Source: Hericium rajendrae
Lineage: Eukaryota; Basidiomycota; Agaricomycetes; Russulales; Hericiaceae
Direction: 5' to 3'
Assembly (NCBI GenBank): GCA_033439255.1
Contig: CM065888.1
Span: forward strand, 2,108,001-2,172,000
Length of the DNA: 64,000 bases
Below the pieces are notes generated by a model, which was not told the DNA's origin, ran no database searches, and worked only from the letters and a program-made list of their open reading frames with translations. Shown in pieces: positions 9,574-64,000 of the stretch. A program made the position numbers and the translations under genes. The first letter of the stretch is position 1. Each line of letters begins with the position of its first letter.

Positions 9574-9575
9574 TG

Positions 9576-15980: not shown

Positions 15981-15984
15981 CTTT

Positions 15985-16530: not shown

Positions 16531-16683
16531 CTGGTCTCCAACACAATTTACTGCTTATAGAAAGATACAGCCACTAAAATGATACACAGCAAACAAATGT
16601 ACATACTGTTTATTGATAAAATGAGCAAAAAATGCAATTTATCGGTAGCAGTGGGTCCTGAGACTCGGTCATGTGATCTTACA

Positions 16684-17461: not shown

Positions 17462-17519
17462 GCTATTGATCACGTGATTGGCCATTGGCTTTGTTCAACA
17501 ATACAATGTTTGACATTGA

Positions 17520-37131: not shown

Positions 37132-37413
37132 TGACCATTATTTTGTCATTGGTTCAACTCTTGCTAGTAACAAAGTTTAAAAATAAAAGATAAGTGTAAA
37201 ACAATATACTTTAAAGATGGAGATCTTTGCAGCATTACAATACTAGTATATTCAATTCTCTGTTATCTTATTAATTCTGTGAGAATAACACTACAAAGTT
37301 AGAACAATTCAAAAGGAATCGTATTGCCGTGCAGAGCATCGGCCCTCTTCTCCCAAGTAGTATGTAGTTAGTTAGGGATCATGACATATAGATTTGAACT
37401 TTGCAATATAATA

Positions 37414-37814
37414 CATCAGGAACCTTCAAAACTTTCTGATGGATCCTGCAGAGTCTGATCAACTGCAAGACCTGATCCAGTTGCAGGCTCTAATTAGAGG
37501 TCAATTTTTGATCAGAGATTTTATATTTTGAAGTCAATAACTATTGGCAAATATAGTAGTCATCCAACTCTAATCATTAGATGCAACAAAGTTTTCAATA
37601 TCTAAATTTTACATAAATCTGAGTAGTTCTGATCAGTCTGTGAGCATTCTGCATTGATACTTTTTTGAATCTTAAGGTCAAATATTCTGCAGCTAGCTGA
37701 GAGTAGCTGATGTTGTCTGAGAGTATCTGATGTGTCTGATGCAACTGCTGCAGATCATGCAGACACTGTCAGATGCCTTGCAGGTCAAACAGAAAGTTTT
37801 GAAGGTTCCTGATG
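37414..37814 (+). mobile_element. MITE family M1, copy d
   Basis: 401 bp, terminal inverted repeats as in the other copies, duplication TA on both sides. Inserted in Helentron copy i; absent at the matching place in copy ii (near 18,000). Confidence 0.9.
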
Positions 37815-38355
37815 TATGTTAATCAAAATAAAGTTTGGATAGCAGGTTACCCACAGGTCACTCGTAGGTCAATGGGTTTGAGCACAACCTTGATCTGGAT
37901 TTGTGCAGGTCTCAGCCACCAGATGATCTGGATCTATAAGTTAGATACCTGCAGGTCAATTTTATGGGTATACCTGTGTTGACCTACGGGTGACTCTAAC
38001 TCATGTTGAACCCTAAAGCATATAAAAAACACTATTTAATCTAATCTAATCATGAGTAGTTCAGCTCCTACCTCTGATAACTCTACATTTTTTACTATGT
38101 TATATATCTTAGCACATTATTTTATATATAATCTTGTATGTTATACAGTACACACTTGTCATATTTTATTATACTCAGCCTAATATATGATATACACTAT
38201 TATATATGCTTATACTATAGATACTTGTAATATCTACAATTATAGTAGTAGTCTAGTTGTATATCTAATCAAACAAGATTCAAGATTGAATATATGATCA
38301 ATGTCAAACATTGTATTGTTGAACAAAGCTAATGGCCAATCATGTGATCAATAGC

Positions 38356-39141
38356 AGACCTTGTTTGGCCGCACAAGGTCTGGTGGCTGTGCTTAGCTTA
38401 TGTCAGCAGTAGTTGATGTTGCGCTCTCTGCTCTCTCTTCTTTTCTTCAGATAGCTTTGAAGTCAGTGTGATACTACCAGTAGTGCACACTAACTACAAG
38501 GCTTGGACACGCCCAGTCCCCATCTACAGCGAGTTGCGGCTGAGGTGTCCAATGATGGTGTGGGGCCATCACCAACTTTCTGGATATCTTCTGATGATGT
38601 GGCATAGAGATTGCACCATAGCACTCTCAATACCACATCAATCAGAATGAGTTAAAGCTTGTTAGAATCAGATTTACAATAGCTCTAGAATAGTGCCACA
38701 AACAACAAAATAGCATGACAAAATGCTGACCTATTGGACTATATGTCTGTGATGATGTGGCAGACTGTTTGCTTTATAGCTCTGCTGATACTGCATCAAT
38801 CATGATGTATGAGGGCTTGTTGAACTCAGATTTACAATGGCTTTCTAACAATACAATGTACAACATCATAGCACCATTGGTTGTTGAGATAGGAGACAAT
38901 ATTGGTTTGCTGATATGACACATAAATTGAAGAATATCTCTGCTTGCAGTGATCCAATTTTCATATTCTAAATTGGGTTAGAAAGATGTAATCCAAGATA
39001 TTTGAACACAATTTACCGTTTGTTGATTGATTGCTTTGTTGCAGAGCTATAAAGCAATCACTGTATACAGTGTATTGGCTCTCTAGGCGACTTATGCTTA
39101 TGTAAGCGGGTACTAAGACCTTGTTTGGCCGCACAAGGTCT
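38356..39141. repeat. 786-bp segment bounded by palindromes, counterpart of 16,684-17,461
   Basis: Both ends carry AGACCTTGT...ACAAGGTCT with centre TTGGCCGC. It is inverted relative to the segment in Helentron copy ii. The two palindromes have changed together relative to that copy. Confidence 0.6.
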
Positions 39142-39299
39142 TGTAAGATCACATGACCGAGTCTCAGGACCCACTGCTACCGATAAATTGCATTTTTTGC
39201 TCATTTTATCAATAAACAGTATGTACATTTGTTTGCTGTGTATCATTTTAGTGGCTGTATCTTTCTATAAGCAGTAAATTATGTTGGAGACCGGCTTTC

Positions 39300-39845
39300 T
39301 GGTATATTCGGATGCATTTGAGAACAAGTGAATCGGTTGAGTACTGATTAAGTTAGCTAGAGTTCAAGCATTCTGGGGAGAAAATGCAGAAACAATTTGC
39401 ATTCTGTGAGTTTTGCACCGATCCTGATGTCTGAGGTACCATCAGAAAGCTATCAATAAGCAGATTCTGATGCATTTTAGAATGAGTAAATCGGTTGAGA
39501 CTTGGCCTAGTTAGCTAGGGTTCAAGCATTTTAGAAGAGGAAAAAAAGAAACACTTTGCATTCTGCGAGTTCTTAACCGATTTGGACGCATGAAGTATGG
39601 TAGCAAAGCTATAAGTGAGTAGATTTAGACACATTTGAGAATGAGTAAATCGGTAAAGAATGGACTGAGTTAGCTCAAATTCAAGTGTTATAGAGGAGAA
39701 ATGTAGAAATTCATTGCACTCTGTGACTTCTGCACAGATCAGGATGCAAAAAATACTGTCAGAAAGCAATAAATGAGCAGATTCAGATGCATTTGAGAAC
39801 AGGTAAATTGGTCAAAAATTGATCAAGTTACATTAAATCAAGAAA
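39300..39845 (-). repeat. Tandem repeat, about 155 bp, in Helentron copy i
   Basis: Inverted counterpart of 15,985-16,530, about 3.5 units marked by GAACAAGTGAATCGGT and related words. Confidence 0.65.
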
Positions 39846-39849
39846 GTTT

Positions 39850-39925
39850 GGCCAGAGCTGGAGTTGAACCTGCAAACTCATTAGATTGAAGATGTGTGAT
39901 TATATAAGCCAACTGCCTAATGGGC
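39850..39925 (-). other. tRNA-like segment with B-box, Helentron copy i
   Basis: On the minus strand GGTTCAACTCC (39,860-39,870) with GGCAGTTGGCTTATATAA upstream. Same module as in copies ii-iv. Confidence 0.55.
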
Positions 39926-39996
39926 ATAGTCATCATTTTGGTGTCATTTTCACTATGAAAAGGTGGTATAGAGTAAACGATTCTAAGGAATCGTAA

Positions 39997-45712: not shown

Positions 45713-46087
45713 TGTAACGGATGGTTTATAAGTTACTACTATAGTCTTCTACTTTCTTACTCTTTTCTACCTGGCTTACTTTTCGAGTTTTGCAGAGTTT
45801 CCTTATTAGGATAGCTGAGTTTGAATCATGTACTTAGAGCGGATTTCCTTATTGGGAATAAGCATCTATCTTGCCAACTCACCACCATCTGTCTGCTTTT
45901 GTCTCAGTCTCTGCTTGTTCTCCTCATATCTGAAAGGTTCTCTTGGGATCCAACCCTCAAAGGAAGGTGTGTGGCCCCCAAAACCCTCATCAGGAGGTCT
46001 ATATCTGCTGCTGGCCCTCAGAGGAGGTGCCAGCTCATCACTCATCTGCTTGGCTGCAGGACTGAGGCATCCTCGGTTCTGTTAGCT
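45713..46087. mobile_element. Truncated LTR, TGTAACGG family
   Basis: Matches the first 375 bp of the complete solo LTR at 10,835-11,321 almost base for base, then stops at 46,087. The missing part marks the point where the TE stack meets the sequence to the right, a candidate boundary of the KDZ-linked island. Confidence 0.85.
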
Positions 46088-46160
46088 CACATGATTCAGT
46101 ACTGATTTTCCGTAAGACCATGTTGAGCCAAACTGACACCGTCGCATTCTAGATTGGTGA
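46088..46160. other. Junction region left of the palindrome array
   Basis: No gene or known terminus seen. Candidate location of the left end of the KDZ-linked island; ACATGATTCAGTACTG begins right after the truncated LTR. Confidence 0.3.
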
Positions 46161-47530
46161 GCTCACGTTGGCCAACGTCCTGGTGTAGTCATAGTAGTAT
46201 GGCCAGAATGACAATCTTAATTATCATACCGCGTTGCCCAGGAATGTTCGCCTATGCCCCTATACCTGACAGTTAGTTACCATGCAGTATTGTCTGGCCA
46301 AGTATACCATTTCTGCAATCGAATATGCCTGGCCAAGCACAAAATATGCCTCAGCCTACCGCGGCATATTGCAGCATATCAGTATGCTTGGCCAATATCC
46401 AATATGCCGCAAGGCTGCATGACCTTATGATTGGCCAATGTGCATATCCTTTCTGCACCAACATGCCGCTATGGTTGACCAACATCCCATATAATTATAC
46501 GCTACCATTCTGGCTTGATTGGCCAACCTCACATATCTTTAACTGCGGCATGCCTCTGCGGTTGGCCAACGTCCCGTATATTCATACGGTGGCATTCCGG
46601 CTTGGTTGGCCAACGTCGCGCTGAAATAACTCAACCATGCCGCCATGGTTGGCCAATGTCCTACTGTATTTGACTCAACCATTCTGGCTTGGCTGGCCAG
46701 CGTCTGATATTATATACCCCACCATTGCGCCTTGGTTGGCCAGCCTCCGACGTATTTTACCGCGGCATGCCGCCATGGTTGGCCAAACACGTACATCCTG
46801 CCTGCATCATCATCCCGCTATGGTTGGCCAACATCCGAAGTACTATACCATACCATGTGACGTTGGTTGGCCAACACAAATATTGGTGTTTCTGTGTCAT
46901 GCCCGCATGATTGGCCAATGTCAGACATGGTTTACCGCACCATGCCCCTACGGTTGGCCAACATATGAAATAGTGTACCGTACCATGCTGGTATGGTTGG
47001 CCAACGCGGACATCCTGTCTGTGTTGTCATGCTGCTATGGTTGGCCAACTCGCATATTCTCTCTTCAGGACCATGCCCGCATGGTTGGCCAACAGCCGAA
47101 GATACTATTATACCGTGCGACATTGGTTGGCCAACCCACATGTTCGTTCTCCTGTACCATGCCGGCATGGTTGGCCAATGTCTGACTCACGTTACCGCGG
47201 CATGCCCCTATGGTTGGCCAACATCTGACGGACCGTACTATACCGTGCGACATTGGTTGGCCAACCCACATGTTCGTTCTCCTGTACCATGCCGGCATGG
47301 TTGGCCAATGTCTGACTCACGTTACCGCGGCATGCCCCTATGGTTGGCCAACATCTGACGGACCGTACTATACCGTGCGACATTGGTTGGCCAACCCACA
47401 TGTTCGTTCTCCTGTACCATGCCGGCATGGTTGGCCAATGTCTGACTCACATTACCGCGGCATGCCCCTATGGTTGGCCAACATCTGAAATAGTATACCG
47501 TACTATGCTGGTATGGTTGGCCAACACACA
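46160..47530. repeat. Array of about 30 GGTTGGCCAACC-type palindromes, period about 43 bp
   Basis: TTGGCCAA or a one-base variant recurs near 46,168, 46,293, 46,329, 46,388, 46,432, 46,474, 46,516, 46,562, 46,597, 46,647 and then about every 41-46 bp to 47,515. The dominant unit is ATGGTTGGCCAAC followed by about 30 bp ending in a second palindrome-like word (ACCATGCCGGCATGG or CCGCGGCATGCC). From 47,085 to 47,475 three units form a 129-bp higher-order repeat present three times almost unchanged. Reading frames here (WLANVR.. peptides) follow the repeat and I do not regard them as genes. Function unknown. Confidence 0.85.
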
Positions 47531-47712
47531 TTATAGATTGCACATGCTCATTTCTTAGCATACTACATACAATGTCTATTTACCGCTATTTCACGCCACA
47601 CTGCCATACCTACATTGGTTGGTCAGCCATGAACTCACCACTGCTCGTATGGATGCTCTACATCAACAGGGAGGTGATGCTGGTGGTGACCGGCTCCTCG
47701 TGTTGTACCGCA

Positions 47713-48330
47713 ATACGAGCGATGCTACAACCTTATCCAGAAGACCGTACCCCATGCCCGTAACATCCCCAAGCAGCCACGTCCCGTGATTCTCTGCGTA
47801 CCTCTGGTCGTCATTCGTTCCATTATATGCTCATATGGACTTGTATCGCAGACCGAGTGCATGCGTGCTAATGTACTATGCTTCCCAGGTATGCCGCGGC
47901 ATACTTACAGCGTATGCCGCGGTTGATCTCTGGAATGTACAGGAATACGAGCGATGCTACAACCTTATCCAGAAGACCGTACCCCACGCCCGTAACATCC
48001 CCAAACAGCCATGTCCGGAGATTCTCTGCATATCTCTGGTCGTCTGTGGACTTGTATCGCAGACCACGTGCGTGCGTACTAATGTACTATGCCGCCCATG
48101 TATGCCGCGGCATAATCTCAGAATATGCCGCGGCCTAGCTCCAGAATGTACAAGGATACAAGTGATGCTAGAACCTTATCCAGAAGACCGTACCCCATTC
48201 CTGTAACATCTCCAAGCAGCCATGTCCAGAGATTCTCTGCGTATCTCTGGTCGTCTATGGACTTGTATCGCAGACCACGTGTGTGCGTACGAATGTACTG
48301 CATGGCTAATATATGCCGCGGCATAATGTG
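47713..48330. repeat. Tandem repeat of 211-231 bp units with ATGCCGCGGCAT palindromes
   Basis: Units start near 47,713, 47,944 and 48,155 with GAGCGATGCTACAACCTTAT. Each contains AGAAGACCGTACCCCA, a TCTGGTCGTC block, TTGTATCGCAGACC, and one or two ATGCCGCGGCAT-type palindromes about 25-30 bp apart (for example 47,889, 48,102 and 48,313). No conserved ORF. Confidence 0.85.
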
Positions 48331-48823
48331 GACCAATCTCATACAGATGCAATGAGTGGCAGTTCGGAGTTTGACGAACATTCAGGAGCCCGGCCTCATT
48401 TACTACCTTTTGATATATGTGTTGCATTTGTTTTCGATTTCAGAAATTGCAGCGTCCTTGCACTTTCAATATCGTCTGATCTGTCTTGATTCTATGCTCT
48501 CAACGACTTGAAGTGCCCATAATATGTTTCGACAATCCCCACAGATGCCGCCTCAGCTGCCGCGGCATTCGTACGGTCTCTGTCTGGCTTGCATGTAATT
48601 TGGAACACATTGTAGGAGGCTGTCCATGTACTAATTGAAGGAATACAGTTTCCGTCTATGCCGCGGAGACTTCTGTATAGCGTATCCATCCCCATGTCGT
48701 ACAATCATTATAGAATGCCGCCAATGTTGTTATCATTCACGCGGCATTTTGCTGGTATATGAACCTCAATCTCTGATATAAAGTATATCTACCCTACAAG
48801 AATACTAAGATACGGATAGCCAC
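48331..48823. other. Intergenic, no gene recognised
   Basis: A non-repetitive stretch between the tandem array and the 3' end of the next gene. It contains GCCGCGGCATT at 48,562 and ATGCCGCGGAGA at 48,659. A 70-codon minus-strand ORF (48,492-48,704) has no recognisable features. Confidence 0.5.
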
Positions 48824-49970
48824 CTAGTACTTTTCAACTGCCATTCGGTAGCTATCCCGTGCATCCTCTAGGTAACTCTTCATTCTCTCATGGCCTTTCG
48901 CTAACGTTCGGAAGAGGTTTAATTCCGTCTCGAACCGCGCTGCTTCCGCTGCCATGACCTGCTGAGATACCATCATACCGACAGATCCCGGATGGAGGCG
49001 ACGGGACGTGCTGAGATATCGGTGAAACGGGAAGTCCTGTGATATTTTGACCATCAGCTATAGGGACAGTCACTCATCTCAAGTTAAAACGCACCTCGAC
49101 CAATGGTGGCGGACTGCTACTATCCTGTTGGCCAGAAGAGAGGCATCATTAACATCTCATCACACATCAGCACAAAATGTCCGCACCTCAGCCTGTTCAG
49201 TAGCCATGATTACCGGTCCATCACCTCCCTCCACCATTCTCTCCTTTCCCTTTCCCTTACCGGATACCTGGATTAATTTAGGACTTAGTATGTTGGCCGC
49301 GGTCATAGCCATAGTACATACCGATCCCGCGGGACCGCCTACTCCAGCCTTCGCAGGTGTCGCGATGGCATTACGACCCGCCTCGCACTGCACATCCGGG
49401 CTTATGCCATCATCACGAATGACACCGCTGATCGTCGTTTTGGTAAGCGCAACCGCAGCCGATATGTCCCCTGGACCTCGCGAGGCATATCCCACCCCAT
49501 CCGCAGATGCAGACTTCGGTAAATCAGTTTAAATTCAGGTAGAATGGGTTGACAACATACCTCCTCACCCAGAGTAGGACTACCGCATATGTCCATAAAC
49601 ATGCCCTCCATCTCCCGTAGCTCGTCCATTGCTCCCTGAGAAATATCAGCAACCAATTTCCCAGGGCTCGCACCCTACTCACCTTTTCAACTTCCTGGAC
49701 ATCGGACCCTGTGCGCTCGTGAGCCACATTCATAGTCGGCGGATCAAGGACACCGCAGAACATGTCCTCCATCGCCTGAATGTCATCAGGATCTCCCTGC
49801 CCGCTATAAGCGTTGAAATCCAATGCTCTAACAATAGCACTCACCTGGTCCCCGCGTGCTGCCTGGCCTGCGGGCATATGGTTCTGCGGGTTGTCAGAAT
49901 ACATATCCACATCATGTTCAGACTCCTCAGTGAGTCCTACCATGAACGAATCCAGGTCGTCAGCGTTCAT
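48824..49970 (-). CDS. Unknown 294-aa protein, six exons
   Basis: Exons on the minus strand: 49,970-49,845, 49,796-49,683, 49,635-49,561, 49,513-49,187, 49,124-49,095 and 49,036-48,824. All introns are GT-AG, 47-62 bp, and all junctions fall between codons; the total is 885 nt. The acidic N-terminus (MNADDLDSFMVGLTEESEHD) is followed by two similar acidic blocks (DDIQAMEDMFCGVLDPPT and DELREMEGMFMDICGSPT). A Gly/Ala/Thr-rich middle holds a GKGKGKER tract, and the C-terminus is predicted helical (VMAAEAARFETELNLFRTLA). I recognise no domain. It is divergent from the Cys-cluster gene at 50,114 with only 143 bp between the start codons, so the two probably share a promoter. The two EDMF/EGMF blocks may be an exon duplication. 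Confidence 0.7.
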
Positions 49971-50113
49971 TGTAGTAGAGAGTCAACAGTGACACCAGCG
50001 CCAATCTACGCGAGTTCACCGCGCGGCGCGACGGTCACGTGATCTGGCTCTCACTTCCCCGCGGACGCGGCTAAGTCGACATCCTGTCCCACTCTCACTT
50101 TGCACTCACCACC
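49971..50113. promoter_or_regulatory. Bidirectional promoter region (143 bp)
   Basis: Lies between two divergent start codons. It contains GCGCGGCGCG and CACGTGA (an E-box-like CACGTG at about 50,036-50,041) and CCCGCGGACGCGG. No TATA box is obvious. Confidence 0.5.
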
Positions 50114-52589
50114 ATGTCATCCCCCTACACCCCACTTGAAAAGGATGTCATGCGCTGTGCTCTTCGTGTCCTCCTTGCCCTTGGTTCTCTAAAGCACCGG
50201 GACATTATCAGCAGGGATGAGTGGGAGCGACGTTTCACTGCGGAACAAGTACGTTTTCAGTTCTTAACTTCATATGCTGCTGACCACGTTACGTCTCTGC
50301 AGAAATCTCTAGCACAGGCATTTCTGGCCGTGCAACAAGCCGGCGAACGCAAGATAATCCCGCCGCTCGTCATCAGCTGGATGCTTGAGATGGTAGATGC
50401 CCGCCGCATGTCCCGGCCAGTGGACTTCGCTTCCATCTCCTCTGCGGATTCCCGTCTCAAGGAGGAAATGATGGGGCACTACCACTCTGAGTTGTGGCCA
50501 ACAAACTACCATGATCTCGACGATTCCCAGGGCGGCAGTGTGCTCGAAGGTGGGTGGTGGTTAGAGCTAGGTGCGTCGGTATTCGGTCCTGCATCATATT
50601 CAATCCATTGATGTATTGTTAGATCGTAATGAATCCCCAGTTTCCATTGCATCGTCATCCGACCATCCTGCTGGTCGTTCCTCCGCTCAGACCACCCGCC
50701 CCGCCGCCGTACCTACTGCGAAACCTCCCCAGCCTGATCCTGAACGTCGCCAACCCCCACGACCTCGGCCTAAGGTTGTGCTCCAGCCCACGAAGAATGG
50801 CGTTCGCATCCAAATCCCTGCAGATGATGCCGCCGAGGTTGAAGAGCAAATTGATCGCAACCGCGCGTGGGTAGAGGCTTCTAAGACGCCCTCAAGGCCT
50901 GCAGAGCATGTCCCTGCCGCGCCGACCCCACCAGAGCCCCGCCGAAGCAAGCGCCGTGCGGAAGCCATGGCCTCTGATGACAATGCCTTACCCGATGCCG
51001 CCCAACCAAAGACAAAGGCGCAGAAGACGAAGAACGCGCCCGCATCCAAGAAGGCTGCACCAACGAAGGCTGGGGCCAGCAAGACCACTTCCGCCTCGAA
51101 GAAGCCAGCAGCAGGCAAGACCGCTGCGAAGCCCCAAAAGGGCGGACGTGGCCGCAAGAATGCAGCGGCGACTAGCCAAGAAGTCCAGCAGTCGCAGGCC
51201 ATTGAGGACGCCAGAGAGCAGGAGGAGAACCAGCAGGGAGATCAGGGTGTGGAGAGCGAGCAGCAGCAAAATGAGGACCAGCTTCCTCCACAGGTAAGTC
51301 TGTAATTTGTTACCATATTCTTCCAATGCTCACATATACCTTTGCTCCAGCGGGTATTCACAGCTGACGAGCTTCGATACATCAAGCAGGCCAAACTGGT
51401 AGCGGTACGCTTGCAAATTTCATTGTTACTTTATCATAAGCAATACTGATGAAGGTTTCAAATATCTTAGCTGGATTCCTGCGAGCGCTGCGTAACGGAC
51501 CAGAAGCCTTGCTTCCCCAGGGGCCCATGCAACGCCTGCCTCGCCTGCAAGGGCCTCAAGCACAAATGCTCCCACCGGGCCCAAGGCGCGGGCAGCGGGA
51601 ATAGGCGTAACTGGGACCCAGAGGACTACTATGATGTGCTCTGGCGGCATGCAGCTGGGCCGATGCCCAAATGGCCCCTGGACCGCTCTGTCGACTGGGA
51701 ACCTGAGGTGCAGGGTAATGTCTCATCATGGGGCTACTGGTCTGACGCAGCCTCGGCGACAGCTGCCGCAGCTCAGGCAGCCTCGGCTTCGAAGGCGGAA
51801 GCACAGCAGGCCGCGGTTACTCAGGCACCCGCTGACTTTGACGTCGACATGGAGGATGAGCCGCGTATGCCAACGCCGCCAATGCAGGTCAACTTGGATG
51901 ACCGTGCTCCTGGACCATCTCGGCGTAAGGACAAGGGCAAGGCTCCAGTGCGCGCCCAGGACCAACACTTCGACGGTCCTGCACACGCTGATCCAGATCA
52001 CCAGTCTGAAATTCCCCTGGATGTCACCCCTCCTCGCCGACCGAATCTGTCTCCCCATCCCCCTATTGCTTGCATTGACGATCCAATGCCGCAAGACCCG
52101 CGGGAATACGACCCACACTCCCAACAGCTGGTCGAGGATCTTGCCGCGGATATCAAGCGTATCCGCCTGCAATTGGGCACGCACGAAGGTGTCATTCAAG
52201 GCATGGCCCATCTCTCCGCGGACGTGCAACGCCTCTCCGAGCGAGTGTCCAGCATTGACACCACACAAGGCCGCCATCAGGAGTCAGTGGAACAGCGACT
52301 CAAGGAGCATGAGGACCGTCTTCAAAACATTGATAGGGGCCTCACCACACTATCCAGCAACCTGCACACCGACATCTCCGACATGTCCTCCAGGATGGCC
52401 TCCCGGTTCGAAGAGCTGCGTGGCATGGTCAACGTGGCCCCGCAACAAGTTCCGGTTCCCGCGGGACTATTTGGTGGGCGGTTTAGCACGGCTGCGGCGG
52501 TTCAGTGGGGTGGAGCTACTGATGCAGACCGCGGCAATGCTGGGGCCTCATCCAGCCAGCCTAGCACAGGTTCAAAACCTGCCAAGTAG
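50114..52589 (+). CDS. 741-aa Cys-cluster protein with basic middle and coiled coil
   Basis: Exons 50,114-50,248, 50,303-50,549, 50,623-51,293, 51,351-51,404 and 51,471-52,589; introns 54-73 bp, GT-AG, in phase throughout (2,226 nt). Residues 1-130 form a mostly helical N-terminus. About 145-345 are Pro, then Lys/Ala-rich like a histone H1 tail (KKAAPTKAGASKTTSASKK). Residues 373-402 carry a Cys cluster C-x2-C-x6-C-x5-C-x2-C-x2-C-x6-C (CERC...CLACKGLKHKC), whose halves resemble the Zn2Cys6 CxxC-x6-C motif. About 580-690 form a coiled coil (QQLVEDLAADIKRIRLQLGT). Sequence-wise it fits a nuclear DNA-binding protein that oligomerises. The family name is unknown to me; similar Cys clusters with coiled coils are common next to transposons in Agaricomycetes. 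It is not a classical Gal4-type factor, since the cluster is internal and has seven Cys. Confidence 0.8.
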
Positions 52590-53320
52590 GTATATCCATG
52601 CCCGCGGCATCCGGCGGCATTTTCACTATTATTTCATGAGTCCTGCATGCTCTTCGCCCTTGTACTTAAATAGATAATGAATGATCAATCTCTCCTATCT
52701 AAGATAAAATGTGTGACCTGAGATGAATGATTCTTGGGCTTAAGACAGTTATATAACCCGTTTCAAGTCTCGCATGGCAATATCTGTGTATACAACATCC
52801 TGAACTGCGACCAGATATGAGTATCTATGATATGATGCACCAGAGTCTACATCAAATGGAGTATTGACCCCGCCTTTCTCCATGTTCCACACACTGCTTT
52901 GAATCTCCGCGGCATGCTACTGACAACCTAAGGACATCGCCGGACAGCACAACACTGATTTATCATGCCGCGGCATATCTATTGACGTCGCCTATGCTCC
53001 TGCACCCCGCTTCGGGACTTCCAGAGCCATCACCCTCCTCTCTATATCCTACAGCCCACTGTAAATGTTGTTCGCGTCGGCCCACGGCCGCGTGAGGCAT
53101 GTTGAAGCCCCTAGCGTTCGGTATACAATGCCGCGGCATATCTGTTGAAGGATGCCGCATGCCGGCGAGAGTCCAATGGGCTCTCTCAAGCTTTCCTGCC
53201 ACCGGATGGACGTGCTGCAGGGATCGCAACCTCCACTGTCAGCTTCGGATTGCGGCCAGAACGTGGGGGTTGTCTACATTGTGAATCAGCAAGACGCCTG
53301 GGTGCTGACAGCAGCATAAC
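52590..53320. other. Intergenic between convergent genes, with CCGCGGCAT motifs
   Basis: No gene recognised in this 731-bp stretch. It holds CCGCGGCATC (52,602), CCGCGGCATG (52,908), ATGCCGCGGCATATCT (52,965) and ATGCCGCGGCATATCTG (53,128). The last two are near-identical 16-bp words 163 bp apart. Confidence 0.6.
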
Positions 53321-56300
53321 TTACTCAAGGGCCTTAGCCGTCGGCCGCTTTCTCCTAGACCCTTCAACAATGTTCTCATCCTGCACTTCAGGCTTTCTTT
53401 GCCGCCTTGCAGGCGGCTTGATTGGGGGATGCATCGAGCTCGGCCCAGCCTTTGGGGGACTATCAGGAGATCGAAGACGTTTCCCTAGCAGATGGGGGCC
53501 TCCACGATCATTGGCGGCATTGCTGGCCCTCGGGACATTGGCGTTCTGTCCAGAGGATGGAGCCTGCTGCCCGGATAGTTTAGCATCATTGCCGCATAAA
53601 TAAAGAGATAATTAATGTTGCCTACAGTTTCGGTAGTGCCTTCCGGATCATCTAACGCCTTGCAGGCTTTCGTAATTGCAGGGATTATCAGACTCGCAAT
53701 GTAAGCGAAAGCAAGAGGTGATCCGTTCAAATAGCCAGGTCCTGAGCTCTCCTCGTCCGCGTCCTCTGCGAATTGGCCTTCATGCATATCATGTATAGCA
53801 CTACCCATGGCCAAAGCAAAGGTTTCCATGCTTGTCCTAGATCGGACACTCCTCGACCCGTTCTGCGTTGGTGCAGAAAGCCAGGGCTTCGTACCAATCC
53901 ATGTGGTGAGGTCGTCTAGCCCCTCCTGCCTATGAACTTCAGCAGGAAGCCACATTTCCTGGCTCTCCCAGTCTTTCCAGTGCGTTCTCCAGCTTGCTGG
54001 AAGTGGAATTAGTGGCGCAGCACCCGTTCCCTAAGTCCAGTTAGTGTTTGAAACTTTGAGATGTCATAATAGCATCACTCACTCCTTGCATCTGCGCAAT
54101 CAGCTCCAGAAGCTTGCAATACTCCTTTTCATTGGATAACGAGGCCAGGTATTGCATGCGGAGTCGGGTGTGGCGTCGTGTGTCTGCAGGGCATTCCAAA
54201 GTGGCTGGACGATTACCGCGGCGTTGCGGAGCACCACCTGCAGCAGCGAGAGACCCTCCGGCAGGGCCGCCTGAGCTCCCAGTCCACCCAGGAGGTCTCT
54301 CCAGCTCCTGTAGGCTCTGGTCTGCCACTTCGTCCACCATGATCAACACCTCATCCTCCTCATCAGTCGATGGAATTCCAGACTCCTTCTGCTGTCCTTT
54401 GGTTTCCTTTGCCTTCTTCCCCTTCCCAAGCTTCACCAGATTAGCCTTCGTTATGGTCAGTCGTTCCTGATAGGCTTTATTCTTCACCTCCTTCGCTTTC
54501 GTCTTTGCCTCCCTCGCCTTTGCCTCCCTCGCCTTCGCCTCCCTCGCCTTCGCCTCCCTCGCCTTCGCCTCCCTCGCCTTCGCCTCCCTCGCCTCCGCCT
54601 CCCTCGCCTCCGCCTCCCTCGCCTTCGCCTCCCTCGCCTTCGCCTCCCTCGCCTTCGCCTCCCTCGCCTCCCTCGCCTCCTTCGCCTGAGCCTCCGCCTG
54701 AGCCTCCGCCTGAGCCGCGGCCTTCGCCTGAGCCTTCGCCTGAGCCTTCTCCCGGATGGTCTTTGCCGCCGCGGCTTTGGCCTTCATGGCGTTCGCCTTG
54801 GCTGCAATTGCCTTGGCCTCCATCGCCTTGGCCGCCTTAGTGGTTTTCGCTTTTGCCTGCGTGGCATTCTCCTGAGCCACCTGCGCCTCATGCTGTTTGG
54901 CCAGGGTCTGCGTTGCCGCCTTTGGATGCTGTGCGTCACTCTCCAAGTCTATATCAGACGGGTTTGCCTCCTCTACTTCTGCTTCGGAGTCCTCCTCTGC
55001 TGCCGCAGTAATGCCGCTGTAGTCCGCATCAGATAGAACATCCCCTGCCTTGGACGCATCAGTGTCCGAAAGGTGGACGATGTCTTCACCACCTAGTGAC
55101 GACGAGGTAAGGTCCTCATCGGTGTCGTAATCCCTTGGGGGCCTGTCCTTGCCTTTCCGCCTGATTGCAGGTGGCGGGGTGTCTTGTACATCTGGTGACG
55201 ATGGGGTCTGGTCATCCTGGCTGTCGTAATCAACGTGCGCCCATTCCTTGCCTTTTCCCAAGGTCGCCGTCGGTGTACGGCTTTGCGCGGAGGTATTGGA
55301 GAACCCAGCGGCATTCCGGGACGCTGTTGGGGGCCTGTCCTTGCCTTTCCGCCTGATTACAGGTGGCGGGGTGTCTTGTACATCTGGTGACGATGGGGTC
55401 TGGTCATCCTGGCTGTCGTAATCAACGTGCGCCCGTTCCTTGCCTTTTCCCAAGGTCGCCGTCGGTGTACGGCTTTGCGCGGAGGTATTGGAGAGCTCCG
55501 CGGCATTCCCGGACCCTGTGGAGGGGGACATGGCATGGCGGGCCTTCAACGCGGCTTTCCTGCCTTTAGCAGGAGGTCCCTGCATTGGAGTAGGAGCTTT
55601 GGCAAAGCATTGAACAGTGTCATCACCGTCGACCTCCGGAAAATAATCCCACTTGAAGGGAATCAAGCCTTCGTCTATGCGGTCGTGCCAGTGCCTGTAT
55701 ACATCTTCAATGCAATATTGGTTCCACTTTGACGGGTGAATCCAGAATTGGTATCCTGGCGGGAAGCAATCCAGGGAGAAGTAGTCGCTGTCCTCGGTAA
55801 AAACCAATCCCCATGGCACCGCGCCCTTCACTTCACCTATTGCAATATCTGATCTACATGTCAGCTTCTGCTCCACGAGATGATACTCTGGCTTACGGAA
55901 GTGTGCAGTCATCCACTGAGTGATCAAGGCCTTCCGCTCTTGCCTCTCCAGCTTATCGAATACCTCTAGCGATGGCAAGATCGGCCAGCCTTCATCGTCA
56001 TAATCCAGTTCCGGGAGGTCTAGGCTTTCGCTTGGAGCATCTGGAGCTTCGCAAAGCAGGGGATCTGAAGCATGGCATCAGCGCTTGCCAGCCAGATATA
56101 TTGAAGTACTCACCTGATGCCTTTGTTGACCACTCCGTCCATTGTGTAAATATGCCGGTGTCTGCCCAGTTCGGATTTGCCTCGCTGAACCCCTTTGTCC
56201 CAGACAGGTCTTCTGTATAGTCTTGCCTACTCGGGGTTAACTCAAGTCAAATGTTAAAGCAGCAAATGACTTACATGGCATGGGCCAGACGGCCATCAGG

Positions 56301-57058
56301 GCATTTAAAAGATGTGAAAATGATCATTTGCATGCCGCACTGCTGATACATTTCTTTGGCAAAGCCGCGCATGTGGGCGACTGCATATTTGGATGCATTT
56401 CTATTCAGGATTAGCCCCCGCGGTTGTTAGAAGAGAGGTTTGACATGTACTTGCGTTGCACATCAGGCGGGGGGCCCATCTGATTCCACTCATTCGCCAT
56501 CTCCTCATACTTCGCCTTATCCGCGTCACTGAACTTCGCACACCACGCCGTTAGGGTGTTCTGTCGCAATCCAACCCACTTCGGGGACCCGACTTTGACC
56601 CCGTTCACCCGCTCGAAGTATGCATGGAACGAATCCTTCTGCTCATGTGCGGCCACGTTCCTCCAGTCTGCCTTCTTCACGTACTTCTTGACCTGGGTAC
56701 TTGCGGTCTTACGGCCATTATTTCGGAACCAGATCACGACGCGCTGTGCTGAAAGTCAGAAAGGGAGATTTCAAGTAAAACAGATACGGACCTCCTTGAC
56801 CCGACGCCTCCACTTCTTCCAGGGAGCAAACTCGCGGGCAAATTTGACCTCCAGGTGGTCCACACATTCGTTTGCAATGGCCGTCTTTCGGGCAGAGTCC
56901 GCCAAACGATACTCGGCCACTCGTGTGAAGAGATATGCAACGTGGCGGGGCTGGAGGGTGAGCTGGACTTCCAATGCTGCTGAGGTGCTTGCGGTTGCCT
57001 CATCCGCGGCTTTGGACGTGCGCTTGTTGGCTTTGGTTATCTTTTTCGCCCTAGCCAT
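53321..57058 (-). CDS. 1,143-aa protein with WFRNN motif, 64-aa repeats and long Ala/Lys/Glu helix
   Basis: Exons on the minus strand: 57,058-56,792, 56,743-56,451, 56,400-56,275, 56,226-56,114, 56,064-54,083, 54,030-53,626 and 53,566-53,321. Introns are GT-AG, 48-59 bp, in phase (3,432 nt). Residues 1-190 are basic and helical with [20 protein letters not shown] around 80-100. WFRNN recalls the recognition helix of homeodomain-like folds, but I infer this only from the motif. A region rich in Trp and Asp follows (residues 300-425). Two tandem 64-residue repeats (about 453-580) carry [17 protein letters not shown] run of [11 protein letters not shown] (about 650-810) should form a single charged helix. 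The C-terminus is basic ([21 protein letters not shown]). The family is unknown to me, probably TE-associated. It is divergent from the TET/JBP gene. The last intron (53,567-53,625) is the least certain. Confidence 0.75.
54480..54740 (-). repeat. Coding microrepeat for [11 protein letters not shown]
   Basis: CCTCGCCTTCGCCTC and CCTCGCCTCCGCCTC units of 15 bp repeat about 16 times within the WFRNN gene. Length is likely to vary between strains. A plus-strand ORF of Pro/Ser (54,505-54,840) is its shadow. Confidence 0.85.
55140..55530 (-). repeat. Tandem duplication of 192 bp within the WFRNN gene
   Basis: Two copies, about 55,137-55,328 and 55,329-55,520, nearly identical (for example GATGGGGTCTGGTCATCCTG in both), encoding the 64-residue repeats. 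High similarity points to a recent duplication. Confidence 0.85.
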
Positions 57059-57841
57059 TAGGAAGGGGAAATGTAGGGGATGGCCAGAAAGGACATGCGA
57101 CCTTGAACGAATTTTTGCAATATAATTCGTCCGTCTTCCATCACGCACCGGCCAGGATCGAATTGGGAACCCATCCGATCACGCCATGGCAGGTATCGAA
57201 ATACCGGTAAGGCAACCAACAGGGCCAGCCGAAATAATCCTTGCCGAACGGAGAGCAACGGGCATGTTGCTCCATTCGAAAGAAGACAGGTTTCCCATTG
57301 TCACTCGCTACAACAATCACATGCCCATCGCTTCATTTGCCAACTAGTACTGAGATTGAGCATAATGCTAGCTTGATACACATATTCCATGCGTATATCA
57401 TGTATTTCTGGGAAGAGAAGTCAGTAGGATCTTTGAATGTGTCTGTGGATCGATAGACGCAAATAAGAAGTCCGGCGCGCCAAACATCTGGGCACGGCCC
57501 CCACCGGATAATCTATCCACAATCAATCGGTTACTCGTCATAATACATAATACAGCTATCAAGTCCGGTCCGAAGTCCACAATCGTGATGCGAGAAAGCA
57601 TTAATGAGCCATATACACAATTGTGTAGTATCAAAGACTGTGGAGAATGTTGGGTTATTGTGAAGTCTATAGTGTACAATTCCCGAAACATAGATTCATG
57701 CTGATTGAGTCAACCGCTGGACAATAGAAAGGTACAAAAACAGCGGTAGCTTCATAGGACAATAGAATGACATTGGCAATTCCAAATTGATGGGACAATA
57801 GAACAATGTAATATGTGGACAATGGAAGCTCGAGTACGATC
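57059..57841. promoter_or_regulatory. Divergent promoter region between the WFRNN and TET/JBP genes
   Basis: 783 bp between the two start codons. The element GGACAATAGAA occurs at 57,719, 57,758 and 57,793, with a variant GGACAATGGAA at 57,817, all within 110 bp upstream of the TET/JBP start. No TATA box is evident. The repeats could be binding sites for a regulator or for a protein of the island. Confidence 0.6.
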
Positions 57842-59306
57842 ATGGCTGCCTCATTGTCCCTGCAAGTATTTCAGTCTGCGGTATTCCAGAGACAACTATA
57901 CCACAGAGTCATCATGTCTTCCGCACCTACATCCCGTGCGGCATCTTCATCTGCTTGTCCTTATGCCTCAGCCATGGCAGAGTATCTCTCCCACCGATTT
58001 CGCAATGTGCTCAGACAACGTCAATGCGCGGCATTGAACCGGGCTGTGCCTGGTGATATTGACCGTCCTGCTATGACAATACCGATTACTGTTTTATCTG
58101 AGCTCGACTTCGCCGCGGATATGCTTGTCACCGCCTTTTTGGATCGTGGTATGTAATTATGTGTATGCGGCATTCTCCCCCATTGCTTAATTCCCATTAG
58201 TTGTGATCAACTGGGACATGGAGCGCTATGCAGAACGTAAACGAGAGCAGGACTCTCCAGTATTTCTGCAACGATATCCGCGGGTATCAGGACATCCCGA
58301 GTATACCAAGCCCTGCATAGGCATTGATCGGCATGGACGGATTTTCTTCTGGTACTTGCCTGGTCTTATATCCAAGGAGCGCGAGGTATTGTCTTTTGCA
58401 GGTACATACAATCAAAACCACTAATTTCGTTCACAGATCAAGATGGCGAGGGCAACAGAACATTTGAACGCACATGTTCGAAGGTCCAATCCATCTCGGA
58501 AAAAGTCTGGAAGCACCAAGGATGGCACATGGAGGGAATCGCCCCAGCTCTTTCATCCTGCAGAGGCATGTAGCCGATTCACCCCAGGGACGGTGTCTGT
58601 GTCTCCTGCATGGTTTCAGCAGGCGCACACTGTGTGTATCATATTTCCCAATTCATATCTATGTCTCCAGCTCATGCACTGGTTCATATAGGGGCCCAAC
58701 GATGACTTGTTTACTTCGCCACTGATAAACCCGGCAAAACGCAACATTGATGGCGCGAACTGGGTGGCTGACATTGCAGAGTCCGCTGCGCTATTCAGCG
58801 CTATTCTAAGCGTTGTTCATCCAGAGCTCTACGATGCCGCGGCATCCGTCATGAAGGAGCTCAAGGGCATTGAACGACTTGCTCCAGCCCTTCAGCAATG
58901 GCCATCTGTGTTCAACGGAGTTGCGGTCATATCTAACCGGCAAACACCGGCTCATCGCGATGGGCAGAGTCGTGCCTCATGGTATGACATTCTCTGCACC
59001 ATCGGTCCCTATCAGAGCGCAACGTTTGCGCTTCCAGGAACTGGCCTAGAACTGAATTACAAACCCCGCACTGTCATAGCAGTGTCTGGCAAAGCCCTGG
59101 AACATTCAGTCTCAGACTTTGTTGGGGAGCGCATTTGTTACGCATGGTTCATGAGAGATGCCGTGCATGATCGCATTGGGCAGGAGGCAGCCGGATGGAT
59201 GCGGGTCAGCAGGTATGAGACCATGCACGCTGAGGCGGCTGTTGGCGATTCCGAAGATGATCTGGAGCAATCGGTGCTGGATCTCCGGAGATTGGCGTTA
59301 TCTTGA
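57842..59306 (+). CDS. TET/JBP-like 2-oxoglutarate/Fe(II) dioxygenase
   Basis: Exons 57,842-58,148, 58,201-58,385, 58,437-58,631 and 58,692-59,306; introns 51-60 bp, GT-AG, in phase (1,302 nt, 433 aa). A second in-frame ATG at 57,914 is possible. TET/JBP enzymes oxidise methyl groups on thymine or 5-methylcytosine in DNA. Residues 85-145 hold the N-terminal block of the fungal family (CIGIDRHGRIFFWYLPGLIS). The C-terminal half has the catalytic double-stranded beta-helix: QTPAHRDGQ gives the iron motif H317-x-D319, LEHSVSDFVGERICYAWFMR gives the third ligand H367 and the 2-oxoglutarate-binding R376. TSPLINPAKRNIDGANW is a linker. All key residues are present, so it looks active. No CXXC domain. 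Fungal TET/JBP genes are known to be expanded and linked to KDZ transposons; the KDZ gene starts 165 bp downstream on the same strand. Confidence 0.88.
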
Positions 59307-59470
59307 GATCATATGGACATCTAGAATATACCACGGCTTCTCGGAAGCATGTCATTTGCCACCATTTGTTCCTTAGTAATGAGTGTAAAACTGAGGGTCC
59401 TAATCGTTCAAACATTGTGGCGTTATTATATGCGCCTTAACACCAAGGCCCATGCACCATCAGTCCCAGC

Positions 59471-62400
59471 ATGGCCCGCACCAAGCCGGGCAGGAATAAA
59501 GTACGATATACTGCACCCCTCCATGGCAATGTCCATGTCACCCTGGTTGTGCAGAAGACGTCCCGCGGGTGGAACCAAGTCGGAATTGAAAAGGCTGGAT
59601 CACGTAGACTGCTGAGCGAAACCCCTTCTAACCTCACTCCTACGCCTGACAGGGAGGGAAGTGGACCATCCAGGGATGCTGTCTTCAATGCTCTCCCAGG
59701 GCCACGTACTGCCGACTATGAAGTCATGAACAACGACTTTGTAGAGGAGGAGGACGGGATTCGTGACCCATTAGCAGATGTACATCACAAGGTGGGTAGG
59801 ATAACCTCGGCATGCCGCAGGACACGGTGCTGATGCCGCGAGCAAGGGACAGCATGATTACTTGCGCGAATGGCTACCCAAACGTTCAGACTACATCCAT
59901 GCCATGTTGGATACCGAGTGCCCGCCAGTTGATACCCAGTGCGTTACCTGCAAGAGTCAAGAAGGTGTCTGGCGATGTATGGACTGTCTAGGGCAGATGT
60001 TCGAATGCACTCCCTGTTTCTCTAAACGTCATACGGCCTTGCCATTCCACCGCGTCGAACGCTGGACTGGCGAATTCTTTTCTCCATCATGGCTTCGCTT
60101 CGCCGGTGTCAAGATTCATGTAGGCCATTCAGGACATCCTTGCCCTTATGCCAGTCGAGAGGACGTTGAATCAAGTGTGGATCCGGAGGAGGACGCTGAG
60201 GAGGATCCACCAATTGACGATGAGGATCCTACTGCACCATGGCCTGCTGATGATGAGGACCTGCTGTCCTTTCAGACTGACGTCTTGCCGAAGAAGGCCC
60301 GTGATGCCGACGGGAATCCAATTCTATGTATTGTGGACTCGAGTGGTGTGCACCGCATGCCGGTTGTCTGGTGTCAATGTCCTAATGCAGATCCCCTCCC
60401 CCTGCAACTCTTCCGTATGCAGATGTTCCCATCTACATTCCACTCACCTGAGACGGCATTTACCTTCCGCGTTCTGGATGACTTTCGGCTGGACAACCTG
60501 GAATGCAAGACGACGGCTTACCATTTCTATCATAAGTTGCGAAGGCTCACGAATAGTGCATTTCCGTCCAGTGTACCAGTATGTGTCTGTCTCGACGTGG
60601 GCCATCACCATGCTGACTGTAATCCAGGATAGATACCGGGAGTTGTTGAGGGTTGAGCGGCAATGGCGGGATATGAAACTCAGGAAGTGGTTTGGTATGG
60701 GTCACGACCCAGAGGATTCAGAAACACCAGGATGCCGCGCGATGTTCTGCCCTACCTGCGCACAGCCAGAATTCAATCTACCAGATGACTGGAAGACAGC
60801 TGACCCCAGACGGTAACTCGCTCCTCACATGGTGCATGACCTATGGCTTACCGTCCTGCATGTAGTTGGATTTTTCTCAGGACGTTTGTGATGGACGGCA
60901 ACTTTGAGTCCACAGGAAGCAAGATGCGCAGACCGGCCAACGACGTCCAGCTTAGCGAAGGGGCCGGATTCATGGTTGGACAAGCAGAGTACAAGAAGCA
61001 CTTGAAGGCGGCTAATGACCAACGCGAGGTGCGCATCATTTGACCATATCACCAGAACACCGTTGAGGTATCCCGCGGCATATAGCGATCCACCTGCAAC
61101 GAGCACCGGGCGGTCAATCGTGTCAATGCTGATCGCCATCACATTGAACATACCGGAATTGGAGCAACGGCTTGCTGCCATGGGTGCTTCTACCCGCACT
61201 CTACAGTTGATTTTCAGAAGGGCGAGCGGTTGGTCTATGATTTCAGCCATGTGGAATGAACATGCTGACCAGTGTAACAGACAAATGAACATGGACTACT
61301 CCGCGTGTCAGGCCATTAACTTTAGAAGCAAAGGTATAGAAATCGTCATGAAAATATACGACATCATATGCCAGTGGCGCAAGAAATTCCGAGAACGCGT
61401 GGCTAACAGTGAATTCCTATCTCTTCCTGATAGCATCGTCGAGATGAAGGCTGCGATTGGACTGTTTCATGTGCATGGGCACAAGGATGAATGCATCCCA
61501 GCATTTTCACCGAATTATATCATCGGTGCACGGCAATTCGATGGTGAAGTTGTCGAGACGCTCTGGGCTCCACTGAATGAGATTTCTAGAAGCACCAGTG
61601 GCATGTCGACATCCCACCGTCGGGAAGTTCTAGACGACCATATGAATGATTCAAACTGGAAGAAGCTCATTGGAATGGGTACTGATCTGAATCGCCATAT
61701 CCCGTTTATGCCGCTGACCCACTATACAGTGAACTACCTATCGCGGCGGTATCGGGCTGGAAAGGTAGAATTAGAAAAGGCAATCACGGCATTCAAGAGT
61801 ATCAATTCCACGGTCTCACGGGATAAACGGGATGACTGGGCGAACGAGGAGGAAGAGGCACAAAGCAAACGGGAAGATGATCCCATGGTGATGGTCAAAA
61901 TCTATGACACTACGGTAAAGAAAGGTACTGTGGTATCCTGTCCATAACCTGGAGCCAGTACTAATATATTATATGTTGTGGAAGGGCCGACAAGAGCCGA
62001 TATCCTCGTCAGGCTAAACAAATTAGAATTGGACCGTGGACAGGGCCTTGGCGCTGCGGCATGGATAACACTGGGCCTCCGGATTCAAGAGACACAGTTC
62101 GTTGTTTCACCTGACGTATTTGATTTGATCTCAACCTAAATCTCAAACCGCAGGCTGTCTATTGTATCGCTTGTCCGCAAAGTGGGGTCGAGCCCTACCT
62201 CGGCACAAAAGAATGATCTCGAGGACAAACGAAGACGTCTGCAATCCCGTGTGACGACCTTTGAGCGTGCTGCATGCCAGTTTTTACCCTACGACATCGA
62301 TACGGCTAATCACGGCATCCCTCTCTCCGCTGGAGATGGAGATCAGTTTGATCACGTTGGAGAAGAAGACGAGGACAATGATACCCACGCTACTGCAGTA

Positions 62401-63244
62401 CCCCGTAGATCTGGCGGTTACATCCCCATTGAACGCGTGGCTATCAGCCTACCATCTCGTCTTGATAAGGAGGTTCTCCGTGTGCCTCAGATGAAGACAT
62501 TGGTGGAAGCTGAACTGGAATTGCGGGAAGGCCAGGCCAATGATGCATTGCAAAGCTTACGACTAGCCTTGGGATACAAGGCCTATGTTTTCAGGACTGA
62601 TGTGCGGCAGGCCAATAGTCAACGCAAGAAGACACGGGCATGGGAGGGTGTGACCTCTATCGAAAGCACCGTTCAACACCAGGCACGTGTGTATTCAAGA
62701 TGTAGAGAGGCTATGGAAGATCTGGGTGCTAAGGAGGACATGCTCGAGAGGTTCCAATCTCTCCTTCCAGAGCATCTGAAGGTCCGCACTGCTGTCCTGG
62801 ATCCATCGGTCAGGGGTCTACGCAATTCAACTCTGCCTTGGTTCTGGACGATGGATGTCTCTGGTGATTCACTTGAAGGCGAATGGCTTGCAGACTGTAA
62901 GTCGGACATTCAGTCTTTATCAGAGACGTATGCCGCAACATGATTAATTCACACTATTCTCAGTCCACCGAGTTCAGTGGCTTCGTGCACGGGCAAGGAT
63001 GCATCGTTGGCATGAGGAGATGGTTGTTCTTCCATTTGAAATGGATTGGACTGTGAGAGGATTTCAGAAGCGTGCAGATGATTGGGGGAGCAGGGTGGAG
63101 AAGGCCGGCGAAGAGGGGTTGCGCGGCCATGCGGCATATGGTGCACGGCAGAAGGCGATGTGGAAGGAGTTTTCTGGAAGCGCAGACACAATGTTCAAGT
63201 CTGTGTTAGGGGATGATGAACGTTCTAAATATGGTCTAGACTAA
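59471..63244 (+). CDS. KDZ-superfamily transposase with CxC2-like cysteine cluster
   Basis: Nine exons: 59,471-59,791, 59,853-60,578, 60,628-60,812, 60,866-61,028, 61,086-61,228, 61,281-61,924, 61,985-62,096, 62,154-62,896 and 62,964-63,244. Introns are GT-AG, 49-67 bp, in phase (3,318 nt, 1,105 aa). It encodes a DNA transposase of the Kyakuja-Dileera-Zisupton group. After a basic N-terminus (MARTKPGRNKVRY) residues 108-120 read HDYLREWLPKR. At 130-165 lies the Cys cluster CVTCKS...CMDCLGQMFECTPC, as in the CxC2 domain known from these proteins. The RNase H-like core has MDGNF (D421), CNEHRAVN (C469-N476), FQKGERQMNMDY, YDIICQW (D540), FHVHGHKDEC and DGEVVETLWAPLN (E602). The C-terminal VQWLRARARMHRWHEEM is typical. 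No stop or frame loss is seen, so it appears intact. The terminal inverted repeats were not found. Confidence 0.92.
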
Positions 63245-63346
63245 TGTACATGTACTTGGCTGGACATACTATGCTTCACACAAATGTGGATGGATTCTCA
63301 CTGTGATCACATACCGCGGCATATCAGAGATCATTCGAACTGGCCT
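63245..63346. other. Short intergenic between convergent genes
   Basis: 102 bp between the KDZ stop and the stop of the minus-strand gene. It contains ACCGCGGCATATCAG at 63,313, one more instance of the island's CCGCGGCAT word. Confidence 0.6.
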
Positions 63347-64000
63347 TTAGTCATGCAGAGACCTATTCAAGGTTTGCCAGGCCCCGCCTTCATCCTGCAT
63401 CCAATCCTCCATATGTTGCAAGTCGTCGAGGATGACGGAACGCTCCTTGCACCATGCATCGATGTAATTGGACAGATTCTCCGCCACAGATACAGCCTGA
63501 TCCAATGCATAGTAGATGCGGTCTGCACGTCGCACCTACCGCGGCATCAGCAAGATAGCCAATGGCATAGGAGGTATGTACATACCGATTCCACATGGGC
63601 ACGTACAGATAGGGCAAGAGTTCCTAAAATATCAGGGGGCGATGGTGTACGCTGGGCTGCCGTCTGCCCTTGGCCTCCATTACCACTACAGTCTGTCAGC
63701 AGTGTTCTGTGACGCATACCAGACAGGTTCCGCTGACCTTCCGCTCTGCGCAGGTCTGTGCGATTGACCCGCCGTCCTAGTTGTGGTCCGGAGCTCCTCC
63801 CTTATATCGTCTGGCCACCACTGGGAGCGGGGAAGCCACCACCGTGGCATGTATCGCATAATCGGGTCACCCCGCGGGAATGCGGGAGCAGGTGGCAGCG
63901 CTGGATGATGACCTTCGGATAGAGCACGACCAAGGATATCCAGGTTGGTCCCAGTATCCCGTAGCAACGTAGGAATGATAATCGGCGTCTTGGCGAACTC
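63347..64000 (-). CDS. 3' end of an unrecognised spliced gene (cut by right edge)
   Basis: Minus-strand exons: 64,000-63,738 (partial), 63,685-63,586 and 63,535-63,347; introns of 52 and 50 bp, GT-AG, in phase. The visible 184 residues include PTLLRDTGTNLDILGRALS, FPRGDPIMRYMPRWWLPRS, QWWPDDIREELRTT, a Ser/Gln/Pro linker, TPSPPDILGTLALSVRAHV and a helical end, YYALDQAVSVAENLSNYIDA and MEDWMQDEGGAW. I do not recognise the family. The last segment looks like a helical bundle or coiled coil. It converges on the KDZ gene with 102 bp between stops, so it may be further cargo of the same element. The choice of the 52-bp intron (63,686-63,737) rests on phase and length and is less certain. Confidence 0.6.

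Follow-up and report, generated by a model that had tools for sequence, protein, structure and literature searches.

A probable Kyakuja-like TET+ KDZ transposon in Hericium rajendrae and the ATGCCGC motif repeated along it

The association of KDZ transposases with TET enzymes and the TET+ Kyakuja transposons of Agaricomycetes have already been published (Kojima 2025, PMC12730594). Kyakuja elements have 5'-CA..TG-3' termini without inverted repeats and a 7-bp target site duplication, their TET proteins reportedly have Ser at position 331 and Asp at position 337, and AG-type enzymes have been speculated to lack any specific target (PMC12730594). Here, we analyze a 64,000-nucleotide stretch of Hericium rajendrae DNA (contig CM065888.1, positions 2,108,001 to 2,172,000; hereafter the window), the right 17.9 kb of which is very probably one large KDZ TET+ transposon. 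This element has in common with TET+ Kyakuja the KDZ transposase, an AG-type TET, the CA start, Ser 331, and Asp 337, and differs in an element-wide 7-mer, ATGCCGC (hereafter the tag), an array of palindromes at its left end, and the partner genes A, B, C, and F, which are not described in the available text of that paper (PMC12730594). TET+ Kyakuja elements are therefore already known, and it is the element-wide tag that appears to be new. Full-text searches of the literature gave no description of the tag among the matches listed (as titles and the starts of abstracts), nor of the combination of TET, end array, and a tag in coding DNA. The best overall explanation, which we favor tentatively and short of conviction, is a young Kyakuja-like TET+ transposon with sequence-addressed demethylation.

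That such addressing exists is shown by the VANDAL elements of Arabidopsis, whose VANC proteins attach to short motifs repeated in tandem within the elements that encode them and bring about a loss of methylation (PMC5735166). The likeness lies in a short motif that is tandemly repeated in non-coding parts of the element itself; however, VANDALs are plant elements of the MuDR group, and TET is not mentioned in the available text of either source (PMC5735166, PMC10398659). Moreover, VANC21 bound motif-free coding probes much less, whereas in the present element the tag is found in exons also (PMC5735166). The Spm/En and soybean Tgmt* elements of the CACTA type are similarly large, with subterminal arrays and an element-encoded binding protein, TNPA, and it has been suggested that methylation of the GC-rich part may hinder TNPA binding, but they belong to another transposase superfamily, have CACTA inverted repeats, and are described as holding their motifs at the ends (PMC2613891). 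HIP1 of cyanobacteria is likewise a GC-rich, highly repeated palindrome that tracks DNA-modifying enzymes, although it characterizes bacterial genomes rather than a mobile element and is tied to a methyltransferase rather than TET (PMC4390886). Finally, KDZ1 of Cryptococcus combines a KDZ transposase with a Zn-chelating CxC cluster; it differs in its size (~11 kb), 241-bp inverted repeats, 8-bp duplications, and CxC1 cluster, and the available text does not mention TET (PMC12810828).

The strongest non-random features of the element are the tag and an array of TTGGCCAA palindromes, both absent from an earlier note that had read the right part of the window as a KDZ transposase island. The tag was first spotted by eye and in whole-window counts, and its palindromic form is ATGCCGCGGCAT. 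Counted on both strands, so that each of the six full palindromes (all in the element) scores twice, ATGCCGC has 57 matches in the window, all but one of them within the element at or right of 46,361, where 5.0 are expected from an order-2 Markov model of the element; matches were merged into sites when no more than 12 bp apart. These sites lie in the end array, a set of 211-bp repeats, spacers, introns of D, E, and F, and exons of B, C, D, and E; they stand on both sides of gene A and extend to 63,541, that is, 17.4 kb from the left end. Dinucleotide shuffles did not reproduce the counts in the end array (10 vs 0.60), the left spacer (14 vs 0.28), or the B-C spacer (8 vs 0.18; 0 of 200 shuffles in each case), nor in introns (6 vs 0.12; 0 of 300), and the 102-bp E-F spacer also contains one copy. 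Many of the copies in the left 2.4 kb are not independent because they were made by tandem duplication. Nonetheless, ATGCCGC ranks first among 3,078 7-mers in the non-coding DNA of the element when the end array is set aside (29 vs 1.16), and first among 2,773 when the 211-bp repeats are removed as well (20 vs 0.92); counting the end array puts it third, after two words of TTGGCCAA. With exons included and arrays excluded, it again ranks first (36 vs 6.8 under a third-order Markov model). Right of 47,560, the excess is also specific to the exact word, the motif standing 29 times in 4.7 kb of non-coding DNA and each of its 21 single-base neighbors 0 to 3 times. Two introns (61,029-61,085 and 63,536-63,585) end in the tag, with CCGCGGCATATAG and GATGCCGCGGTAG, respectively, abutting the 3' splice site.

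The coding sequences carry the same signal. Across the six genes there are 17 copies of ATGCCGC, compared with a mean of 3.36 in within-gene shuffles of synonymous codons (0 of 1000), and with the tandem repeats of gene C left out, the tag ranks first of 5,449 7-mers (16 vs 3.37, z 7.1). When the synonymous shuffle was also required to preserve dinucleotides, 16 copies compared with a mean of 4.80 and a maximum of 12 (0 of 1000). Taken gene by gene, the observed count was reached in none of 1000 shuffles for C and D, in 2 for E, and in 23 for B. Tag sites in coding sequence occupy all three codon phases and both strands, and fall in varied amino-acid contexts; the signal therefore resides in the DNA and not in the protein. 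Taken together, the tag is likely to be a real, element-specific signal.

The left boundary of the element is fixed by a long terminal repeat (LTR) that it interrupts. In a self-comparison of the window, 10,835-11,210 and 45,713-46,088 are 98.7% identical. The former belongs to an intact LTR copy of 487 bp (10,835-11,321, bounded by TGTAACGGA...TCCGTTACA), which reads CTAGCTCGTGGACTC... from 11,210 onward, past the point at which the second copy breaks. The interrupted LTR matches the intact copy through GTTAGCTC and then continues as ACATGATTCAG, which is unrelated to the LTR. The left end is thus CACATGATT at 46,088, counting the shared C as its first base, with a one-base ambiguity. This terminus has the CA start of Kyakuja, and it is the one end that lies within the window, since the element (more than 17.9 kb) runs beyond the right edge. 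The two LTR copies differ at 5 of 376 positions; therefore, the interrupted LTR looks young, and the insertion of the element younger still. The element is apparently a recently inserted and intact one; besides its TET/JBP gene, it carries no fewer than four accessory genes.

Immediately inside this terminus is the left-end array, in which the palindrome TTGGCCAA recurs every 43.4 bp (consensus unit ACCATGCCgccATGGTTGGCCAAC). Its TGGCCA anchors span 46,169-47,523, and the last 24 (from 46,520) are 42-45 bp apart, with a mean of 43.4; CATGC stands at one constant offset in half of the 30 units. TTGGCCA has 53 matches in 46,088-47,560 (both strands, each TTGGCCAA scoring twice), compared with 0.55 in dinucleotide shuffles (0 of 200) and 11 matches in the remainder of the window. 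The first anchor is ~80 bp inside the left terminus, resembling the subterminal arrays to which transposases bind, and by this analogy the array may be a transposase-binding site.

The transposase and the dioxygenase belong to recognized families. Protein E matches the KDZ domain (PF18758, E 4.6e-46, 157.7 bits, cut-off 26.6) and the CxC2 cysteine cluster (E 3.2e-25, 88.8 bits, cut-off 27) of Pfam, and protein D matches Tet_JBP of the same database (E 1.4e-20, far over the cut-off). Residues 156-368 of protein D align with CcTet of Coprinopsis cinerea (E 2.4e-26). With alignment columns counted by eye, HRD, the distal His (LEH), and the Asp337 column are conserved, and Ser occupies the Gly331 column of CcTet. 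Judged from its sequence, protein D is a predicted AG-type TET/JBP enzyme, having HxD, the distal His, and Asp337.

Gene models were curated by hand with GT-AG introns in the right part of the window (Table 1). The earlier note had described six spliced genes in compact order, with frames in phase through about 25 introns, and a KDZ gene near a TET/JBP gene. Its gene order, namely a divergent A(-)/B(+) pair, a divergent C(-)/D(+) pair, E(+), and F(-) truncated by the right window edge, is borne out by the hand models, which comprise 35 exons and 29 introns (47-73 bp) that keep phase throughout without an internal stop, and the proximity of the KDZ and TET/JBP genes likewise holds, both being far over their Pfam cut-offs. 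The 294-aa acidic protein mentioned there is the product of gene A, and the Cys cluster, basic stretch, and C-terminal helix are those of gene B. Its left edge, 48,824, is merely the end of gene A, and the element starts at ~46,088.

Table 1. Coordinates of the probable transposon, its repeats, and its genes within the window
Feature	Position	Strand	Description
Kyakuja-like TET+ KDZ transposon (very probable)	46,088-64,000		LTR homology ends at 46,088; right end beyond window
Candidate 7-bp target site duplication, GTTAGCT	46,081-46,087		Last 7 bases of interrupted LTR before CACATGATT; one copy seen
Left-end array	46,088-47,560		30 TGGCCA anchors; unit ACCATGCC(gcc)ATGGTTGGCCAAC
ATGCCGC / ATGCCGCGGCAT tag	46,361-63,547		56 matches, 48 merged sites
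211-bp tandem repeats	47,834-48,327		2.3 copies; contain tag copies
Gene A	48,824-49,970	-	6 exons; 294-aa acidic protein
Gene B	50,114-52,589	+	5 exons, 741 aa; Zn2Cys6-like Cys spacing, H1-like basic stretch, long C-terminal helix
Gene C	53,186-57,058	-	8 exons, 1171 aa; N-terminal WFRNN region, AREAK repeats
Gene D	57,914-59,306	+	4 exons, 409-aa TET/JBP dioxygenase; HRD...H and Asp337 equivalent present
Gene E	59,471-63,244	+	9 exons, 1100-aa KDZ transposase with CxC2 cluster
Gene F	63,347-64,000	-	3 exons visible, 183-aa C-terminal portion, truncated by window edge

The partner proteins gave no convincing Pfam family in the portions scanned. Protein A had no Pfam or NCBIfam match, the 183 aa seen of protein F had no family match in profile scans, and no significant family was found for protein C in residues 1-696 and 788-1171. 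The WFRNN region of protein C matched Replitron_HUH (E 0.044) and HMG_box_2 (E 0.19) of Pfam, both under the cut-off, and its best match in a PDB search had an E of 0.57; a homeodomain-like or HMG reading of this region was unsupported and was dropped. Gene C also contains a 15-bp tandem array of 12.9 copies that encodes the AREAK repeats (54,499-54,695) and a 192-bp duplication of 96% identity (55,135-55,519); its length may vary between copies of the element. For the single copy at hand, the earlier suggestion that the partner genes form a transposon cargo is supported by the LTR boundary, the tag, and a tblastn search of A-F against the left 46 kb, in which no homologue was detected at E ≤0.01. 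With the tag in exons of B, C, D, and E and an intron of F, flanking A, and nearly ending at the left terminus, the partners probably travel with the transposase. As to whether they recur elsewhere, neither a search of viral contigs with the KDZ protein, TET exon 4, a KDZ exon, and the array consensus nor a scan of prokaryotic genome contigs with the KDZ exon found a relative; these collections are not fungal, and the scans are therefore silent on recurrence.

The flank (1-46,087) is, by eye, a nest of LTR retrotransposon pieces with gag/pol-like open reading frames. Its observed/expected CpG ratio is 0.56 overall, with 13 of 23 bins (2 kb each, left of 46 kb) at 0.07-0.45; the element has 0.82. 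This likely reflects host methylation-driven CpG decay of the flank, a difference in composition or age also being possible; a transposon-borne TET would counter such decay. Several repeats mark the flank itself: an inverted pair of 2.2 kb at 94% identity (15,831-18,003 and 37,815-39,996), with a minisatellite of 158-bp period and ~3 copies in both arms (16,009-16,523 and 39,306-39,819), and a repeat of ~400 bp present four times in both orientations at 92.8-94.5% identity (2,504-2,905; 9,175-9,574; 33,790-34,190; 37,413-37,814), possibly a family of solo LTRs or miniature inverted-repeat transposable elements. The flank has an excess of AACCCTA, for which a telomere reading was dropped, as the 17 matches are scattered and TTAGGGTTAGGG is lacking. 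A further palindrome, CTGATCAG, is over-represented in 1-38,000, where all of its 14 copies lie, and other element families here may accordingly have iterated words of their own.

Under the explanation we favor, the KDZ transposase would assemble on the left-end array. ATGCCGC/CCGCGG would be read along the element by a DNA-binding protein that the element itself encodes and that acts as a dimer, and TET would oxidize methylcytosine at the tag, the CpGs of the tag included, so that the element would evade methylation silencing with little effect on the host. Within the tag, CCGCGG holds two CpGs and amounts to two CGG triplets in everted orientation. Paired CGG triplets, including everted pairs, are the typical targets of Zn2Cys6 homodimers, which dimerize through a coiled coil (PMC5559640). 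We propose protein B as the best candidate reader on account of its cysteine spacing, which suits a Zn2Cys6 cluster; alternatively, the tag might be read by the CxC2 part of E or by the basic region at the N-terminus of C. The Zn2Cys6 pattern is CX2CX6CX5-12CX2CX6-8C, and the spacing in the translation of protein B, CX2CX6CX8CX2CX6C (CERC-VTDQKP-C-FPRGPCNA-CLAC-KGLKHK-C), fits it when checked by eye. Protein B also has a lysine-rich, H1-like stretch and a long C-terminal helix, and in a single-sequence AlphaFold2 (AF2) model of exon 5 (predicted local distance difference test, pLDDT, 56.0), helices near the C-terminus alone are confident. The strong form of this proposal, in which an ATGCCGC address spans the body of the element, coding sequence included, and its own binding protein delivers its own TET there only, with demethylation of self as opposed to non-self encoded partly at synonymous sites, is on balance rather unlikely.

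Several observations weigh against this explanation. Protein B has no Pfam match at E ≤10, NCBIfam matches to its Cys region are no better than chance, its PDB search gave no meaningful match (Pho7, E 1.3, and C27B12.11c, E 1.2, are among the chance matches), and the single-sequence AF2 model of the Cys region is poor (pLDDT 54.6); as these searches and models show no family similarity in sequence or fold, protein B is not classed as a Zn2Cys6 member. The tag itself is unevenly spread, with no copy in the exons of A and F or in the A-B, C-D, and D-E spacers; it is therefore not a promoter element in those spacers, and a role as promoter element of the divergent pairs is ruled out. Within the end array, ATGCCGC (10 copies) stands beside variants, namely ATGCCGG (6), ATGCCCC (5), and seven others with 1-3 copies each. 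In an unbiased scan of coding 7-mers under the strict, dinucleotide-preserving null, ATGCCGC comes second, and some 7-mer attains its z in 22 of 200 shuffles, so that an unbiased exon scan would not pick it out; the directed test of coding sequence counts because non-coding DNA alone already selects ATGCCGC. The flank has over-represented 7-mers of its own (z up to 9.7), which probably stem from multi-copy repeats, and the CCGCGG core exceeds expectation there as well (7 vs 1.58), including in the 9 kb of flank with normal CpG (5 vs 1.68). No host gene from which to measure a background was recognized within the window, and the evidence for the tag comes from a single copy of the element.

It is also quite possible, though we doubt it, that the tag and end array are only transposition sites, bound by the transposase or a TnpA-like partner and needed for excision, with no role in silencing. 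The sites are indeed densest in the left 2.4 kb, and CACTA elements offer a precedent in the subterminal arrays to which TNPA binds (PMC2613891). However, the exon and intron sites that reach 63,541 would be unneeded for left-end binding alone, the right end being outside the window. Alternatively, the tag could be a signature of mutation or repair of the kind proposed for HIP palindromes, produced and maintained by modification and biased repair without a functional reader. Such a process would suit a palindrome rich in GC that recurs in both coding and non-coding sequence near a base-modifying enzyme, and HIPs have been linked to methyltransferases (PMC4390886), but HIPs are described as genome-wide, whereas the tag nearly ends at the element boundary, and the excess is in an asymmetric 7-mer, well beyond the six full palindromes; we regard this as improbable. 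A host-wide oligomer or codon-context bias, with the tag scarce in the flank merely because that DNA is decayed, CpG-poor retroelement sequence, would be compatible with the low CpG and CCGCGG excess of the flank and with a window that lacks recognized host genes. Yet ATGCCGC is enriched in introns and spacers, tandem arrays contain it, and the CpG-normal flank has none where 1.72 are expected (a weak control), which leaves little probability for a bias of this kind. That KDZ simply inserted beside host genes in a gene-rich island is very improbable, for although A, B, C, and F lack a known family in the portions scanned, the left end lies within an LTR, beyond gene A, and the tag extends across B, C, D, and E as far as an intron of F.

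For the many transposon-borne TET genes present in some fungal genomes, the element-wide tag offers a concrete, testable mechanism by which such an enzyme could be directed to its own element instead of the whole genome, as well as an internal criterion, independent of comparative genomics, for deciding which neighboring genes belong to a large transposon. If demethylation is addressed in this way, the tag and its reader together would make a natural tool for locus-specific epigenome editing.

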